A model generated the notes under the pieces. That model did not search any database. It worked only from the letters and a program-made list of their open reading frames with translations, and had not been told where the DNA came from. Positions 44,386-53,964 of a stretch of DNA of 64,000 nucleotides are shown piece after piece. Positions within the stretch are counted from its first letter, which is position 1. Every line of letters starts with the position of its first letter. Source of the DNA: Affinundibacterium baiyunense (GTDB lineage: Bacteria; Pseudomonadota; Gammaproteobacteria; Burkholderiales; Burkholderiaceae_D); assembly GCF_018139645.1 (NCBI RefSeq), contig NZ_JAGSPM010000002.1, positions 186,001-250,000 on the forward strand, written 5' to 3'. The translations under genes and the position numbers were made by a program.

Positions 44386-45510
44386 GTGAGTGTGAATGCC
44401 AAAGCCAATCAACGACCAATCGTTAACCTCGCGCTACAAGGTGGCGGTTCACACGGTGCATTTACTTGGGGCGTATTAGATAGCTTATTAGACGACGGAC
44501 AGATTCAATTTGAAGGCATCAGCGGCACCAGCGCTGGTGCGATGAATGCGGTCGCGATGGCGCATGGCTTTGCGCTTGCTGATAAGAAATCCGATCTAGC
44601 AAAGCGCGAAGCAGCACGGCAGTCACTCAAAGATTTTTGGGATGGCGTGATTCAGATGGGCGCTATATCAAATAGTCTGGTGCAAGCGCAACGCGTACCG
44701 TTCGATATGATATTCGGCGGCATGGCAGCGCTGGTCGGCGCACCCTCGCCTGCACAACTCATCTCTGAATCGATTGGCAGTATGTGGAGCAACGCGGTCT
44801 CGCCGTATCAAAGCAATCCCTTAGACATCAATCCCTTAAAGGCATTTCTACAAAACCACATCGATTTTGAGCGTGTAGCAAACTGCAAATTGATGAAAGT
44901 GTTTGTGGTAGCCACCAAGGTCAGCAATGGCAAAGCCGAGATTTTTAGCGGCAAACGTTTGACTGCCGACGCACTGATGGCGTCGGCCTGTCTGCCCACG
45001 GTATTTCAAGCGGTCGAGATTGAAGGTGAACATTATTGGGATGGCGGCTACTCCGGCAATCCTGCCATCCATCCTCTCATTTACGAATGCAAAAGCCGCG
45101 ACGTGGTGCTGGTACAAATCAATCCTATCCAACGAGATAGTTTGCCAAAAACGTCGAGCGATATTTTGGACAGACTCAACGAAATGACCTTCAACGCCGC
45201 CCTCATCGCAGAAATGCGCGCGATTGATTTCGTTAAACGCCTTCTTGCCGATGGCAAGCTAGACCCGACGCGCTACAAAGACGTCCTCATGCATCGCATT
45301 GACGGCGGCGAAGAACTCGAAGCCTATTCCGCTGCCAGTAAATCTCAAACGGATACGCATTTAATTTACCAATTACGTGATCTTGGAAAAACCTGCGCGC
45401 AGCAATGGTTGCAATCCCAAAGACAGCATCTAGGCGTGTCGTGCAGTGTGAATATTGCGCGTGATTATTTGGATGATTTGCGGATGCCGGTTGGTGGGGA
45501 GAGTCGTTAA
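44386..45510 (+). CDS. Patatin-like phospholipase
   Basis: A 374-residue protein starting at GTG with AAGAGGA five bases ahead. The oxyanion motif GGGSHGAFTWG, nucleophile elbow GTSAGAM and the catalytic Asp in DGGYSGNP complete the Ser-Asp dyad of bacterial patatins. No signal peptide is present. It may act on membrane or storage lipids. The last codons overlap the first attC-like element of the accessory region, and a decayed copy of its last 120 bp recurs at 49204-49326. Confidence 0.92.
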   Translation: MSVNAKANQRPIVNLALQGGGSHGAFTWGVLDSLLDDGQIQFEGISGTSAGAMNAVAMAHGFALADKKSDLAKREAARQSLKDFWDGVIQMGAISNSLVQAQRVPFDMIFGGMAALVGAPSPAQLISESIGSMWSNAVSPYQSNPLDINPLKAFLQNHIDFERVANCKLMKVFVVATKVSNGKAEIFSGKRLTADALMASACLPTVFQAVEIEGEHYWDGGYSGNPAIHPLIYECKSRDVVLVQINPIQRDSLPKTSSDILDRLNEMTFNAALIAEMRAIDFVKRLLADGKLDPTRYKDVLMHRIDGGEELEAYSAASKSQTDTHLIYQLRDLGKTCAQQWLQSQRQHLGVSCSVNIARDYLDDLRMPVGGESR

Positions 45511-45594
45511 CGCAACGGTGAGCGGATGGCGGCCCACAAATTTATAAAACACTGAGCCACATCTCGGCCAGTCCGATCGATTGTCATGTTAGCC
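45506..45594 (-). other. attC-like recombination site (end of array A)
   Basis: An 89-bp imperfect palindrome bounded by GTTAACG (45507-45513) at the patatin stop and GTTAGCC (45588-45594). The interior (AGCGGATGGCGGCCCA ... CGGCCAGTCCGATCGATTG) is closely similar to the element at 52922-53016. Confidence 0.7.
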
Positions 45595-46041
45595 GCCATT
45601 CTTTACGCCCTCACACTTAAAAGTAGATTGATTCCAACGGCCGCCATTGTCAAAGCAGCGGTCTTGCTCAATGAATCGGCGGGCGGGTTGATAGAGAGGT
45701 AGCGCGATGAGTCCGCAGCAAAGCAAAACTCGAAGGCGTACTGCCCAAGTGCCGGTGCGGTTGTTTGCAAAGTGAGCGTGTACGCGCTCGACTACCTCAA
45801 CCGCCAACTCATCTATCGGGCCGACCCAGTAGCGACTGTTATCTCCAAACGGCTCTTCAATGGCGAATCGAGTACTAGCGATCTCGAATTCACAGAACCG
45901 ATCTTCGCGAAGGTTGGTGCTAACGATGCGGGCGCCTGGAACCGACGCGGAAACACGGCGAGCAAGCCTTCGCAATAGTACAGAACTTATCTCAAAGCCA
46001 ATAAGCCTTCCTTGGGTGTCATATAAAGGATACGTGCGCAT
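45589..46041 (-). CDS. Cassette protein with a C-terminal membrane segment
   Basis: A 150-residue protein of unknown family. It has a soluble N-terminal domain (TQGRLIGFEISSVLLRRLAR, then RFCEFEIASTRFAIEEPFG), one membrane segment (VLLCCGLIALPLY) and a short tail with two Cys (CFDNGGRWNQSTFKCEG). The base composition is more GC-rich than the surrounding genes. Its stop codon lies in a GTTAGCC core, as expected for an integron gene cassette. It is the second gene of the short array A. Function unknown. Confidence 0.7.
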   Translation of the reverse strand: MRTYPLYDTQGRLIGFEISSVLLRRLARRVSASVPGARIVSTNLREDRFCEFEIASTRFAIEEPFGDNSRYWVGPIDELAVEVVERVHAHFANNRTGTWAVRLRVLLCCGLIALPLYQPARRFIEQDRCFDNGGRWNQSTFKCEGVKNGG

Positions 46042-46052
46042 CGTCCGTGGCA

Positions 46053-46160
46053 GCTAACGTAAAGGTGACCGGCACGTTGCGGCAAGGTGTCACGAGGTGC
46101 AGGATGTTCAACGGCGCGGCGCCGTGCCGCAGCGTGTCCGAGTCGACTGACAAGTTAGCC
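46053..46160 (-). other. attC-like recombination site between cassettes A1 and A2
   Basis: A 108-bp element from GCTAACG (46053-46059) to GTTAGCC (46154-46160). The middle is strongly palindromic (GGCACGTTGCGGC ... GCCGTGCCGCAGCG). GTCCGAGTCGACTGACAA precedes the right core, resembling the other elements. Confidence 0.75.
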
Positions 46161-46616
46161 CTCATATGCCGAGATCATCGCCTGCAGTCTGTCCCTCTCC
46201 TCCGGCTCGAGCGCCGAGGTTTGATCCACGACCACCCCATTCACGAGGTAGTACTCCGTATCTGTCTTGATATGGCCTCGCTTGAGAATCCGCCGGTACA
46301 AGGCGGAGTAGCGGCGCCGGACCTCAGATAGCGTGAGCAACCCCGCGCCCCGGAGCGCTTGATCGAGCAGTTCTACGCTCTCCGGCGCGAGGTCACTCAG
46401 TTCTTCGGCGACATCATTCACGGCTTGGCGGGTGCCGACCAATGCCTTGGATCGGCCGTGCTCCCGAGCAATGCGTTCAGCTTCCGCTCTCAGCGTCGGC
46501 AAGTTGCAGATCGAGACAGGAAGCGTCGGCCTCTTGAGGTTCTCGAAGTAGAAATCTAAGAACGCCAGGAGCTCTTCGAACTCCTTCTCGCGTTCAGGTG
46601 ACATTGGGCGTGCCAT
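46155..46616 (-). CDS. Hypothetical cassette protein, GC-rich
   Basis: A 153-residue, charged, helical protein (SPEREKEFEELLAFLDFYFE, TLSEVRRRYSALYRRILKRG, EPEERDRLQAMISAYEG). No family is recognised. The GC content is well above that of neighbouring genes, so it comes from another genome. It is the first gene of array A: it starts four bases from a GGCTAACG core and its stop lies in the next GTTAGCC core. Promoter supply probably comes from the repeated leader upstream. Confidence 0.7.
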   Translation of the reverse strand: MARPMSPEREKEFEELLAFLDFYFENLKRPTLPVSICNLPTLRAEAERIAREHGRSKALVGTRQAVNDVAEELSDLAPESVELLDQALRGAGLLTLSEVRRRYSALYRRILKRGHIKTDTEYYLVNGVVVDQTSALEPEERDRLQAMISAYEG

Positions 46617-46618
46617 GA

Positions 46619-46820
46619 GGGCTAACGTGATTTAATTTGACAAGTTGCAAAGATAACCGACCACCTAATCTTTGGCAAATTGTTTCTATCCTCTTGAAGC
46701 CCGCATCAGGCTTAGCTTAATTTGCTTATGTTCTGTAAAGAATTGGTTTAAACAAACCGACAAAAAGTGCAGATGATTTTTGAGAAGGTTGCGTACGCGA
46801 AAAATACATTTCAGCAGGCA
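46619..46820 (-). repeat. Leader repeat R1 (promoter plus cassette junction)
   Basis: About 200 bp largely identical to 53665-53864 (R3) and in part to 48334-48475 (R2). Read on the minus strand it has a small hairpin (GGTTTGTTTAAACC), then TTGCCA-N16-TTATCT, then about 45 bases to GTTAGCC where the first cassette begins. The 365-bp interval 46617-46981 holds no other gene. Confidence 0.8.
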
Positions 46821-46981
46821 GCTCCGCTCTCCATCAAACCAACCGAACCGCCATCTGACTCGCATACAATGCCAATTCTTGTATCGATCTCAAAATAAGG
46901 GAAAGGAAAGTTCCCTCCCCCATTGTTAGATTCTGGCTGCCACAAAAATGAAGCAATTGCGACAAAAGCTTAGGGGTCACA

Positions 46982-48333: not shown

Positions 48334-48475
48334 GCATTTAATAGGTTGCAAAGATAAGCGACGATCAAAAATTTGGCAATTTGTTATAACCGCTGAAAAC
48401 CCTTGCCAGGCTTGATTGAAATTACTTAGACCCAACAATAATTTGATTTATACAGCTCAACAAAAAGCGCTGTAA
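48334..48475 (-). repeat. Leader repeat R2 (partial copy)
   Basis: Shares with R1 and R3 the block around AGGTTGCAAAGATAAGCGA and TTTGGCAATTTGTT. On the minus strand it reads TTGCCA-N16-TTATCT into the PPOX gene. It lacks a GTTA core at its end. Confidence 0.7.
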
Positions 48476-51168: not shown

Positions 51169-51561
51169 TCATTGAGTCAGTATAAGCCAAGGCATTTTCC
51201 CCAAGTACCAAGATTCTTCGATCTTTTTTACATCCTGCTCAAGTTCCTTTGCAAATATACACGTCTGCATCCCGCGAATCATTTCTCCTTGGCCGCCACC
51301 TCTTGGCCATTCATTAAAAAAACCATATTTACTATGATTCAGATTAATCCATTCACGAACCTCGTTAGCGCTCGACATGGTATTGAAAGCATTCTCGAAG
51401 CTTTTCGAATTTAAGGCTACAACATTGATAGTTAAGGTATCAGAACTCTTCGATTCAAAGCCTTTTACCAAATCTTTACTGCGTTTCATGCTGCGCTTTG
51501 AATACAATATGAGAACTACTCCAAACACGCCCAGCATAAGACCTAGCATCAAATTTTTCAT
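51169..51561 (-). CDS. Membrane-anchored cassette protein
   Basis: A 130-residue protein with one N-terminal membrane segment (LMLGLMLGVFGVVLILYS) and a soluble C-terminal domain (NTMSSANEVREWINLNHSKY, then FAKELEQDVKKIEESWYLG). The ORF opens earlier at 51597, but the ATG at 51561 lies just after the attC-like element and fits a cassette start. Family unknown. It is the fifth gene of array B. Confidence 0.6.
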   Translation of the reverse strand: MKNLMLGLMLGVFGVVLILYSKRSMKRSKDLVKGFESKSSDTLTINVVALNSKSFENAFNTMSSANEVREWINLNHSKYGFFNEWPRGGGQGEMIRGMQTCIFAKELEQDVKKIEESWYLGKMPWLILTQ

Positions 51562-51571
51562 GATCTGTAAA

Positions 51572-51654
51572 GTAACGGTGAGCTGTTTGCCGCACACATA
51601 ATTAATAAATGTTGATCCGCATCACGGCTAATACGTTCGATCATCCTGTTAGAA
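51572..51654 (-). other. attC-like site after the 51659-52081 gene
   Basis: An 83-bp element from GTAACGG (51572-51578) to GTTAGAA (51648-51654). GGTGAGCTGTTTGCCGCACA and the AATTAATAAAT centre resemble the 45506-45594 element (GGTGAGCGG, AAATTTATAAA). Confidence 0.65.
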
Positions 51655-51658
51655 AACT

Positions 51659-52081
51659 TCATTTCGATTGCTGCTTAACGATTTTTATAATTTCCTCTGG
51701 CTCATCAGGGAAAAAACCATATACTTGGTGGGAACCACCGCACATACCAATTTGCTCCTCCCCTTTGCGAAGGAAAATCACATATTTTTCTGCGACAGTA
51801 ATTGAAACTCCACAATCTCCGCCTGGTGGCCTAGTCTTCACAGTGACACTTTTAGGAACCTCACCTTTTAACTTTCGAATTACTCCGAACTCGACTTCAA
51901 CGTAAGATAAATCTTCATTTGCTTCGTTATGTACTCTTGCAGAAATTGCTTTCGCTAGAAAAATTCTTTCAGCACTATTCACATTCGCTTTTAGATCAGA
52001 CCTACAACTGCATGCGTAACTGCTTAACGAAGGAATAAGTAAGGTCACAAAAATAATCTTGCCTAGATTTGGATTTCTCAT
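51659..52081 (-). CDS. Secreted cassette protein with TIMP/NTR-like start
   Basis: A 140-residue exported protein. The signal peptide ends at SYACSCR, so the mature chain begins with the CSC pattern of TIMP/netrin-like domains. AERIFLAKAISARV and VTVKTRPPGGDCGVSI, then YVIFLRKGEEQIGMCGGSHQ continue the small OB-fold pattern. The likeness is from pattern memory. Alternatively it is a lipoprotein, though the lipobox is imperfect. It is the fourth gene of array B. Confidence 0.65.
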   Translation of the reverse strand: MRNPNLGKIIFVTLLIPSLSSYACSCRSDLKANVNSAERIFLAKAISARVHNEANEDLSYVEVEFGVIRKLKGEVPKSVTVKTRPPGGDCGVSITVAEKYVIFLRKGEEQIGMCGGSHQVYGFFPDEPEEIIKIVKQQSK

Positions 52082-52091
52082 TTACTATTCT

Positions 52092-52199
52092 TTAACTCCC
52101 AGGTTAATCGGCGCAGAAGCGCGGAGGGCACCAACACTGTCCATTAAAATGCCGAAGGCATGAGCAGTGTTGGCGTCCGAGTTGAACCGCCAGTTAGAC
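52092..52199 (-). other. attC-like site after the 52194-52913 gene
   Basis: A 108-bp palindromic element from TTAACTCC to GTTAGAC (52193-52199). CACCAACACTG pairs with CAGTGTTGGCG around an inner ATGCC/GGCAT hairpin. GTCCGAGTTGAACCGCCA precedes the right core, the classic attC look. Confidence 0.8.
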
Positions 52200-52913
52200 G
52201 ACATCCTCAGACTCCCAAAATCCCTTCGATGCTTTCTCAAGGTTCCTGTCTAAGCTGTCCCAAGAAAAGGATGCGTTGCGAACGATCAAGCCGATCTGCT
52301 CGATTATTTCTTGCATTTCAGCTATTGTTTCACCGATGTCTTTCCATTTGACGCCAAGCGAACCAATATCCAATGGTTGAAAAATTCCATTTACGAGGTT
52401 TACATCCAAATGTGCAGATGCTTTGTTCCTTATTTTCTTAAATGAATCAAGCGCAGGCTTGTTTTCAAGTTTTCGCCAATTTTCGTTGAGCCTTAAAACA
52501 AGCTCGTTGAAAGCTCTTCTCCTCTCAAGTTGCGCCTTTTCATCCATTCGCTTTAGCAAATCCAGAACCATTGGATCTTTTTCCTCGGATGGCGGTTCGA
52601 CGTACCAAACCGAAAATTCTTCCTCTAAAGTAGCTAGAAGGCGATCCTCTTGAAGTTTTTCAACGATACGTTTTATGCTTGGTGATGTGTCGTATTTATC
52701 CAAGGAAAGCTTTGCGATATCTTGGCAGCAAAAAAGGAAGAGGTTGTTTTTTATCGCTATGAAACCTCGCCCCATAACTCCCTTACCCTTCTTTTCAATG
52801 ACTGACATATTAAAAAGCATTGGCTCAAGCATCGCGTATCGTTCTCTCAAACCGAGAAATCCATCCAAAAGATGCTCGCTGTGGGCTTTTAGCTTCTGCA
52901 GTTCGATGCTCAT
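52194..52913 (-). CDS. Cassette protein with HEPN/AbiU2-like C-terminal domain
   Basis: A 239-residue helical protein. The region after residue 165 reads KKIRNKASAHLDVN, which fits the HEPN RNase motif Rx4-6H in the AbiU2-like group, where R-N and the later H are catalytic. The first half (residues 1-60) is helical, with an Arg-rich loop, and residues 95-155 are acidic and coiled. AbiU2-like HEPN proteins are linked to phage abortive infection. It is the third gene of array B, with its stop codon in a GTTAGAC core. Function in defence is a hypothesis only. Confidence 0.65.
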   Translation of the reverse strand: MSIELQKLKAHSEHLLDGFLGLRERYAMLEPMLFNMSVIEKKGKGVMGRGFIAIKNNLFLFCCQDIAKLSLDKYDTSPSIKRIVEKLQEDRLLATLEEEFSVWYVEPPSEEKDPMVLDLLKRMDEKAQLERRRAFNELVLRLNENWRKLENKPALDSFKKIRNKASAHLDVNLVNGIFQPLDIGSLGVKWKDIGETIAEMQEIIEQIGLIVRNASFSWDSLDRNLEKASKGFWESEDVV

Positions 52914-52921
52914 ATGTATTT

Positions 52922-53016
52922 ATGTTGACTATCGTCGAAAAGAGCGGATGGCCGCCCAGAAATTAATAAGAAACATAGCCGCATCGTGGCCACTCCGATC
53001 AATTGACATGTTATGT
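52922..53016 (-). other. attC-like site after the 53020-53283 gene
   Basis: A 95-bp element ending at GTTATGT (53010-53016). Its interior AGCGGATGGCCGCCCA and GGCCACTCCGATCAATTGACAT closely match the element at 45506-45594. The left core (GTTGACT) is degenerate. Confidence 0.7.
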
Positions 53017-53019
53017 GTT

Positions 53020-53283
53020 TCATAGATAGTCAGCCGCCATTCTCATAGCGCTAAAAGCGATATATTCATTTGAAAATTCCGATCCAGAAGCTTCAGCATC
53101 GGCAAGCCATTTATCTAATTCATCATCGTATTTTCCTATGATCGTTTTAAGTTCAACACGATCTGCAACGTTAGCTCGTTCAATAAGTTTAATACGCTTA
53201 CTGTCATCGGAAATTCCCCATCGTTCAGCCAATGGGATAAGGACTCGTAAAGACTCAGGAATATGCTCTGTATTCAGTTTCAT
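53020..53283 (-). CDS. Small acidic cassette protein
   Basis: An 87-residue protein with the conserved-looking stretch SLRVLIPLAERWGISDDSKR and a helical acidic C-terminus (KYDDELDKWLADAEASGS). I recall similar short proteins from bacterial integron cassettes but no function. No membrane segment or motif is present. It is the second gene of array B, between two attC-like sites. Confidence 0.65.
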   Translation of the reverse strand: MKLNTEHIPESLRVLIPLAERWGISDDSKRIKLIERANVADRVELKTIIGKYDDELDKWLADAEASGSEFSNEYIAFSAMRMAADYL

Positions 53284-53300
53284 CTAGTGCTCGTCTGACA

Positions 53301-53353
53301 CATAACGCCGAAATGACTGGCGCATTGCGTCCGAGTCGATTGTTGAGTTATAC
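53301..53353 (-). other. attC-like site after the 53348-53656 gene
   Basis: A short 53-bp element from CATAACG (53301-53307) to GTTATAC (53347-53353). It has GACTGGCGCATTGCGTCC and GAGTCGATTGTTGA, comparable to the others but near the minimum size of attC sites. Confidence 0.65.
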
Positions 53354-53656
53354 ATTGTGTCGTTTACAGAACTCTCGATATGACCAGTACTTGACTCCCA
53401 CTAACGCGCGTTCAAGTTCGTCCATGTCATCGTCGCCCAACTCTGTTGAAAAAGGCGCAGACAATATTGTTCGGCAGTTTGACAGCGCCATTAAACCCTC
53501 TGACTCAAGAAAATATTCGACAACAATCTCATTCCATTGTTCACGCGGCACATCGTGATACGCCGCGGTAATTCGGTCAAGTGATACCACCAACTCTTCA
53601 ATGTGTTTGAGCACGTTAACGATATCGCTTTTTTTAAACTCTAATTTATCTGCCAT
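53348..53656 (-). CDS. Hypothetical cassette protein (first gene of array B)
   Basis: A 102-residue protein with an amphipathic helix (KSDIVNVLKHIEELVVSLDR) and a core WNEIVVEYFLESEGLMALSN. No family is recognised. Its ATG lies nine bases from a GTTATAC core and its stop codon sits in the next GTTATAC core, so it is a compact cassette. It directly follows leader R3 on the minus strand and would be transcribed from the promoter in it. Confidence 0.65.
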   Translation of the reverse strand: MADKLEFKKSDIVNVLKHIEELVVSLDRITAAYHDVPREQWNEIVVEYFLESEGLMALSNCRTILSAPFSTELGDDDMDELERALVGVKYWSYREFCKRHNV

Positions 53657-53664
53657 ATCAGTTT

Positions 53665-53864
53665 GTATAACGCGATTTAATTTGACAAGTTGAAAAGATA
53701 ACCGACTATCAAAAATCTGGCAATTTGTTTCTACCCTCTGAAAACCCGCATCAACCTTAGATGAATTTGCTTATGCTCTGTAAAAACTCGGTTTAAACAA
53801 ACCGACAAAAAGTGCAGACGATTTTTAAGAAAGTGGAATACGCAAACGACACATTTCAGCAGAC
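53665..53864 (-). repeat. Leader repeat R3 (promoter plus cassette junction)
   Basis: Full copy of the element also seen at 46619-46820. On the minus strand CGGTTTGTTTAAACCG followed by AGTTTTT looks like a terminator. Further on comes TTGCCA-N16-TTATCT, and the copy ends at GTTATAC where array B begins. No other gene lies in the 308-bp interval 53657-53964. Confidence 0.8.
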
Positions 53865-53964
53865 AGTGGCATGCTTTATCAACATAAACAAAAAAGCACG
53901 GCTTCTGTTCGATTTTTTTGCTACCTAACAGCGAATTGACGGGTAATGCGTGACACAACAATGC

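Follow-up and report, generated by a model that had tools for sequence, protein, structure and literature searches.

The window, a 64,000-nt stretch of the Affinundibacterium baiyunense genome, harbors an integron cassette with a single gene, whose product belongs by its sequence to the already known family HEPN_AbiU2. The gene is a good candidate for a portable anti-phage gene. In the explanation that we favor, to which we assign roughly even chances, the cassette supplies a solo, latent HEPN RNase that acts as a conditional growth-arrest or abortive-infection effector. The established part of this explanation consists of the cassette unit, the family membership, the invariance of one Arg and one His, purifying selection, and the presence of relatives in several other integrons. 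The features of the gene and its cassette are as follows.

52194..52913, reverse strand: HEPN_AbiU2 gene, 239 aa, ATG start (open reading frame list; PF18734 match)
52410..52430, reverse strand: codons R162 to H168, the HEPN R-x5-H motif RNKASAH (both end residues invariant across the 21-member alignment)
52698..52700, reverse strand: codon D72, a nearly invariant acidic residue and candidate third active-site residue (21-member alignment)
52093..52933, reverse strand: the cassette as a unit (gene and attC), about 840 nt (blastn match to a Leeia oryzae locus, L014, ending at core sites on both sides)
52090..52199, reverse strand: attC of the HEPN cassette, its R'' box overlapping the stop codon of the gene (homology to attC sites of Leeia and of contig C79 of the same genome; DNA fold)

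The Pfam model HEPN_AbiU2 (PF18734) matches residues 6-231 of the protein with an E-value of 4.6e-27, covering model positions 2-192 of 193, and the score of 95.2 bits lies well above the curated cut-off of 26.8. It is the only HEPN_AbiU2 gene in its genome. NCBIfam offered just an unrelated family, at 12 bits and far below the cut-off, and PADLOC assigned no family to the protein or to any of 21 aligned members. No relatives on phages, plasmids or viral contigs were found, including in three scans of viral contigs. The HEPN/AbiU2-like identity that a sequence-only reading of the region had proposed is upheld by this full-length match together with the invariance of R162 and H168 among the 21 aligned members.

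The motif RNKASAH (residues 162-168) has the form R-x5-H, with a polar residue after the Arg as in the Rx4-6H motif of HEPN proteins, and is followed by L-D (D170). Of the 46 window open reading frames with 150 aa or more, 34 contain the bare Rx4-6H pattern, as do 42% of 5000 shuffled versions of the HEPN protein, and the pattern was dropped as proof of a HEPN domain; the narrower form R[NDH]x4H is present in 5 of the 46 and in 2.2% of the shuffles. Because the pattern is so common by itself, the conservation of the motif was tested instead. The 23 AbiU2 members comprise the window protein, the Leeia oryzae homologue and those of 21 further loci; 21 of them were aligned, leaving out L024, which is truncated and lacks the His, and L035, which lacks the Arg. 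At a mean column identity of 22%, no column but those of R162 and H168 is fully invariant, and M1 and D72 are conserved at 90% or more. In a profile-profile alignment of the window subfamily against six further members (E 0.00068, with a probability of just 27), Arg fell over Arg and His over His. The earlier recognition of an Rx4-6H motif holds, and its weight comes from the Pfam match and the invariance of the two residues. The Asp that had been pointed out soon after the motif fares differently, since the D170 column holds Asp or Glu in only 12 of the 21 rows; a catalytic role of D170 is not supported, and D72 is nearly invariant instead. HEPN RNases are described as having the Arg, the His, a polar residue after the Arg and an acid in helix 2 (PMC3710099, in the part available), and in its residues the window protein fits this picture, with D72 as the candidate acid in a putative helix 2.

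Structural comparison contributed little. HEPN domains are four-helix bundles in which Arg and His lie where helix 3 ends. An AlphaFold2 model built from two sequences only is helical, with the motif within a helix at residues 153-171, yet its mean pLDDT of 37.9 is too poor for use. Sequence searches of solved structures with the window protein and with the 21-row profile recovered no HEPN structure, and PDB entry 3JRT was absent from the matches of both at E-values up to 10. The profile matched designed helical bundles best (E 2.8e-5), along with further proteins with long helices, and none of these was accepted as a homologue.

The cassette is delimited by its counterpart in Leeia oryzae, which carries the same gene-plus-attC unit. 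The two match at 77% of DNA positions (651/850 nt, blastn) over window positions 52093-52940. On the side of the ATG the match begins immediately ahead of the upstream core site (52940), and behind the attC it ends at the GTTA core (52093), with nothing beyond. The Leeia unit is flanked by GTTAGAC and GTTAGAA, and another attC comes next. The HEPN attC shares 82% of 107 nt with the attC behind the Leeia homologue and 75% of 114 nt with one attC of the C79 integron, and a three-way alignment of these sites has a mean column identity of 85%. Folded as DNA, the HEPN attC was matched by 0 of 200 shuffles (z -2.7); among eight sites folded in this way, three (the HEPN attC, 46066-46157 and the C79 site) clearly beat their shuffles and five do not. 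The gene therefore forms, with its own attC and core sites at both bounds, a one-gene integron cassette, as had been supposed from the sequence, and its presence in two different contexts suggests that it moves as a unit. The 840 nt have room for the 720-nt gene and the attC only, so that the gene stands alone, in agreement with the earlier description, and no partner or antitoxin gene is present in the cassette. The core upstream of the gene (52927-52933, reverse strand) reads GATAGTC where the Leeia equivalent reads GTTAGAC, and this degenerate boundary may no longer recombine, which may impair excision of the cassette.

The cassette is part of a small array, all on the reverse strand, with the following further features.

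53668..53866, reverse strand: leader repeat D1, which heads the HEPN array, with a GTTA core at its end (repeat comparison)
53348..53656, reverse strand: ORF of the first cassette in the array, 102 aa, without Pfam match (ORF list, Pfam)
53300..53353, reverse strand: attC of the first cassette (PWM score 21.6, outside the training set; fold no better than shuffles)
53020..53283, reverse strand: second cassette ORF, 87 aa, without Pfam match (ORF list, Pfam)
52927..53016, reverse strand: attC of the cassette preceding HEPN, with a degenerate R' core, GATAGTC (same family as 51570-51654 and 45505-45594)
51659..52081, reverse strand: cassette ORF after HEPN, 140 aa, without Pfam match (ORF list, Pfam)
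51570..51654, reverse strand: attC-like site with a degenerate R' (GTTACTT), of the same family
51169..51597, reverse strand: last ORF assigned to the array, 142 aa, no Pfam match above the cut-off, no clear attC behind it

The attC sites at 52927-53016, 51570-51654 and 45505-45594 form one family with a mean column identity of 80%, and the four neighboring array ORFs (87-142 aa) have no Pfam match over the cut-off. No integrase lies beside the window array, which is located on contig C47; the only match above the integrase cut-off in the draft genome is on contig C79 (130101-131045, 465 bits). The window array is thus an attC cluster lacking an integrase and not a complete integron, which would have both intI and attI. 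The C79 integron is complete and chromosomal: the stretch read (L036 10093-15004) contains an integrase, an attI region and seven attC sites, and the integrase is preceded by a sequence that we take to resemble a LexA box.

Both arrays of the window begin at the 199-nt repeat D1 ending in the GTTA core. Full copies lie at 53668-53866 and 46623-46821 (both on the reverse strand) and a partial copy at 48336-48470. The second array (45505-46821) is small; its two cassettes, encoding 153 and 150 aa, are flanked by D1 on one side and by a patatin gene on the other. At the same D1-to-patatin site, the sibling genome G132 (L090 10162-11300) has a different, single cassette, between flanks that are 91% and 90% identical. 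The family sample has D1-like copies in 6 of its 195 genomes, the genus sample in 12 of 43. An attC-like site (score at least 20) lies within 1.5 kb downstream of D1 in 14 of the 30 distinct copies (32 rows) and upstream in 2 rows, which represent one site; 16 of the 30 distinct copies lack a downstream attC-like site, some of them ending at contig ends. Among the six D1 genomes of the family sample, only that of the window has an integrase match at E 1e-60, as 27 genomes of the sample do in all. D1 contains a promoter-like and a terminator-like site, such sites being no commoner in the region than in shuffles. A 9-base identity between D1 and the C79 attI region, in reverse orientation, was discarded, as 9% of shuffles have a shared 9-mer. 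D1 looks like an attI-like or relic landing site that is free of an integrase. Insertion at attG, reportedly described by Loot in 2024, is among the nearest published ideas. Another is that of delta-attI cassettes, as far as outlined in the available part of PMC12901181.

To place the gene among its relatives, attC sites were sought in the DNA surrounding each of the 21 other AbiU2 loci (4 to 18 kb per stretch), with 20 control stretches drawn from 18 of the 20 genomes concerned. The position weight matrix (PWM) scanner used here was the third; the first of two earlier ones was blind even to the known array and the second missed the HEPN attC. The HEPN attC scores 27.2 with the PWM and 18.6 when its two homologues are removed from training, and our claim for this site accordingly rests on homology and the cassette boundary, not on the scanner. 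At a score of 22, there were 22 hits in 551 kb-strand around AbiU2 genes compared with 1 in 593 kb-strand of controls. An attC-like site lies within 250 nt on the coding strand of 6 of the 21 AbiU2 genes (L040, L045, L047, L053, L056 and L059), whereas none of 120 fixed control positions and none of 348 control ORFs has one. The same six were retained after removal of the two homologues from training, with which smaller set extra hits of 22.5 and 20.2 appeared on the forward strand of the window outside the arrays and control hits rose from 1 to 2. At a seventh locus (L015/L039), an attC 88% identical to one of the C79 integron lies about a dozen nt past the stop codon. This gives 7 of 21 other loci with attC, or 9 of 23 when the window and Leeia are included, these two being starting points and not independent; neither the PWM scan nor homology located an attC at the remaining 14. 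Integron carriage of AbiU2 genes is thus common but not general. At L056 (genome G230), the AbiU2 gene lies between an integrase (C121:5366-6298, forward strand) and a run of attC sites, in what looks like the position of a first cassette.

Genome G326 has two AbiU2-type genes in separate places (L053 and L059), each beside attC-like sites; the second, L059, falls short of the Pfam cut-off and is missing the Arg of the motif.

In a tree of 21 members, eight of which were labelled integron-borne, the labels change five times, and at least four of these changes are forced by well supported branches; 51 of 500 label shuffles gave equally low numbers, with 9 of the 18 inner branches left open. The distribution of integron-borne members over several branches fits repeated capture, although the deep branches are weak and losses may also have contributed. 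Integrases were more frequent in genomes with AbiU2 genes than in others, both in the class sample (7/9 versus 131/360, p 0.016) and in the family sample (4/13 versus 20/182, p 0.06), with the genome of the window itself counted in both. A literature search, mostly of non-subscription sources and with the 2025 Science papers on integron defence outside its range, gave no earlier report of an AbiU2 gene as an integron cassette among the matches listed. A wider reading would be that AbiU2 HEPN genes are recurrent integron cargo drawn from several subfamilies, as uncatalogued one-gene defence cassettes, and that the window array was captured at D1 as one of a set of dispersed, integrase-free, promoter-carrying attI-like sites; we offer it tentatively and consider it doubtful as a whole.

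Comparison of the window and Leeia genes revealed 29, 23 and 124 differences at codon positions 1, 2 and 3, respectively (124 of 176 at the third). The resulting pN of 0.11 and pS of 0.76 (pN/pS about 0.14) indicate, at the level of codon substitutions, that the HEPN protein is under purifying selection, a portion of which may be older than the arrival of the cassette at the window locus.

According to our preferred explanation, the HEPN_AbiU2 protein would be a helical, probably dimeric, metal-independent endoribonuclease with an active site of R162 and H168, perhaps aided by N163 and D72. The protein would dimerize and cut RNA, and it may stay latent until it receives a signal, for instance from phage infection, after which the activated RNase would arrest translation and growth and thereby limit the spread of the phage (abortive infection). 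Within AbiU, the resistance gene is said to be abiU1 rather than abiU2. Six Abi families, including AbiU2, have been proposed to be HEPN RNases (PMC3710099, in the part available), and, in the available part of PMC12409362, phage defence was provided by at least 16 of 179 integron cassettes from Vibrio cholerae and 9 of the 57 that were tested from V. parahaemolyticus. What speaks most strongly against it is that AbiU2 of Lactococcus, when expressed by itself, left the growth of Escherichia coli uninhibited, as stated in the available part of PMC3985639. Of the suggestion that this gene is a HEPN-type phage-defence cassette, the HEPN/AbiU2 and cassette parts stand, whereas the defence step remains conjectural, with no PADLOC model for the 21 members and with that harmless lactococcal protein.

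The same RNase could instead be toxin-like and serve stress dormancy or array maintenance without being tuned to phages, so that growth would be arrested after general stress. Toxin-like cassettes are common in integrons, and the Pfam match and the invariance of Arg and His support this alternative as much as the preferred one. HEPN proteins of integron cassettes have also been hypothesized to induce dormancy (PMC3710099, in the part available), but the 840-nt cassette is without an antitoxin and lactococcal AbiU2 alone was not toxic in E. coli (PMC3985639, in the part available), and we regard this alternative as possible but rather unlikely. Less probable still is that the protein is a non-catalytic or regulatory RNA-binding helical protein and that AbiU2 types modulate another factor instead of cutting RNA. 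In AbiU, abiU2 is reportedly an accessory gene, which would agree with such a role. The absence of the Arg or His in 2 of the 23 members would agree with it as well, as would the lack of toxicity of the lactococcal protein (PMC3985639, in the part available); against it, exactly these two residues are invariant in the other 21 despite the low mean column identity.

The cassette could also be a stranded relic in an integrase-free array with degenerate sites, having lost expression and selection. The upstream core GATAGTC and another degenerate attC, the location of the sole full integrase found on another contig (C79), and the promoter-like sites at chance level are all in line with this, while the intact open reading frame and the pN/pS of about 0.14 relative to the Leeia copy are not, even if the selection partly predates arrival. 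We consider a relic very improbable.

Among the closest known systems is the AbiU2 of Lactococcus lactis (PF18734), a family that takes its name from lactococcal AbiU; the window protein is alike in its full-length profile match and R-x5-H motif. The lactococcal AbiU consists of two genes, abiU1 and abiU2 (PMC3985639, in the part available), whereas the window has a single gene in an integron cassette. The gene thus encodes an AbiU2-type protein and is not an AbiU system, its neighbors being short and without Pfam matches over the cut-off, in a comparison limited to ORF length and Pfam profiles. Vpc_cass2 (PDB 3JRT) is also a HEPN protein in an integron cassette (PMC3710099; PMC3548836), but its family is listed apart from AbiU2 in the available part of PMC3710099. 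The anti-phage cassettes of Vibrio and mobile integrons (Darracq 2025; Kieffer 2025; Getz 2025) are likewise small and often missed by defence catalogues; according to the available parts of PMC12409362 and PMC12444791 they were phage-tested, whereas the window cassette is known from its sequence alone. HepT/MntA (HEPN-MNT) likewise has a HEPN RNase toxin (PMC7641770, in the part available), which is paired with an MNT antitoxin, in contrast to the window cassette, and Pfam detected none in the neighboring array ORFs.

If the reading of D1 is true, cassettes could be expressed from many places of the genome, with the integrase elsewhere. Being a single short gene whose predicted active site is clear, the HEPN gene allows inactive controls at R162 and H168, which makes the question of whether AbiU2 is an effector or a helper directly testable. 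If the defence function is true, an RNase class missed by PADLOC would join the growing list of anti-phage integron cassettes, and the capture of several AbiU2 subfamilies by integrons, if upheld by more extensive sampling, would indicate that the gene is selected as a portable function.
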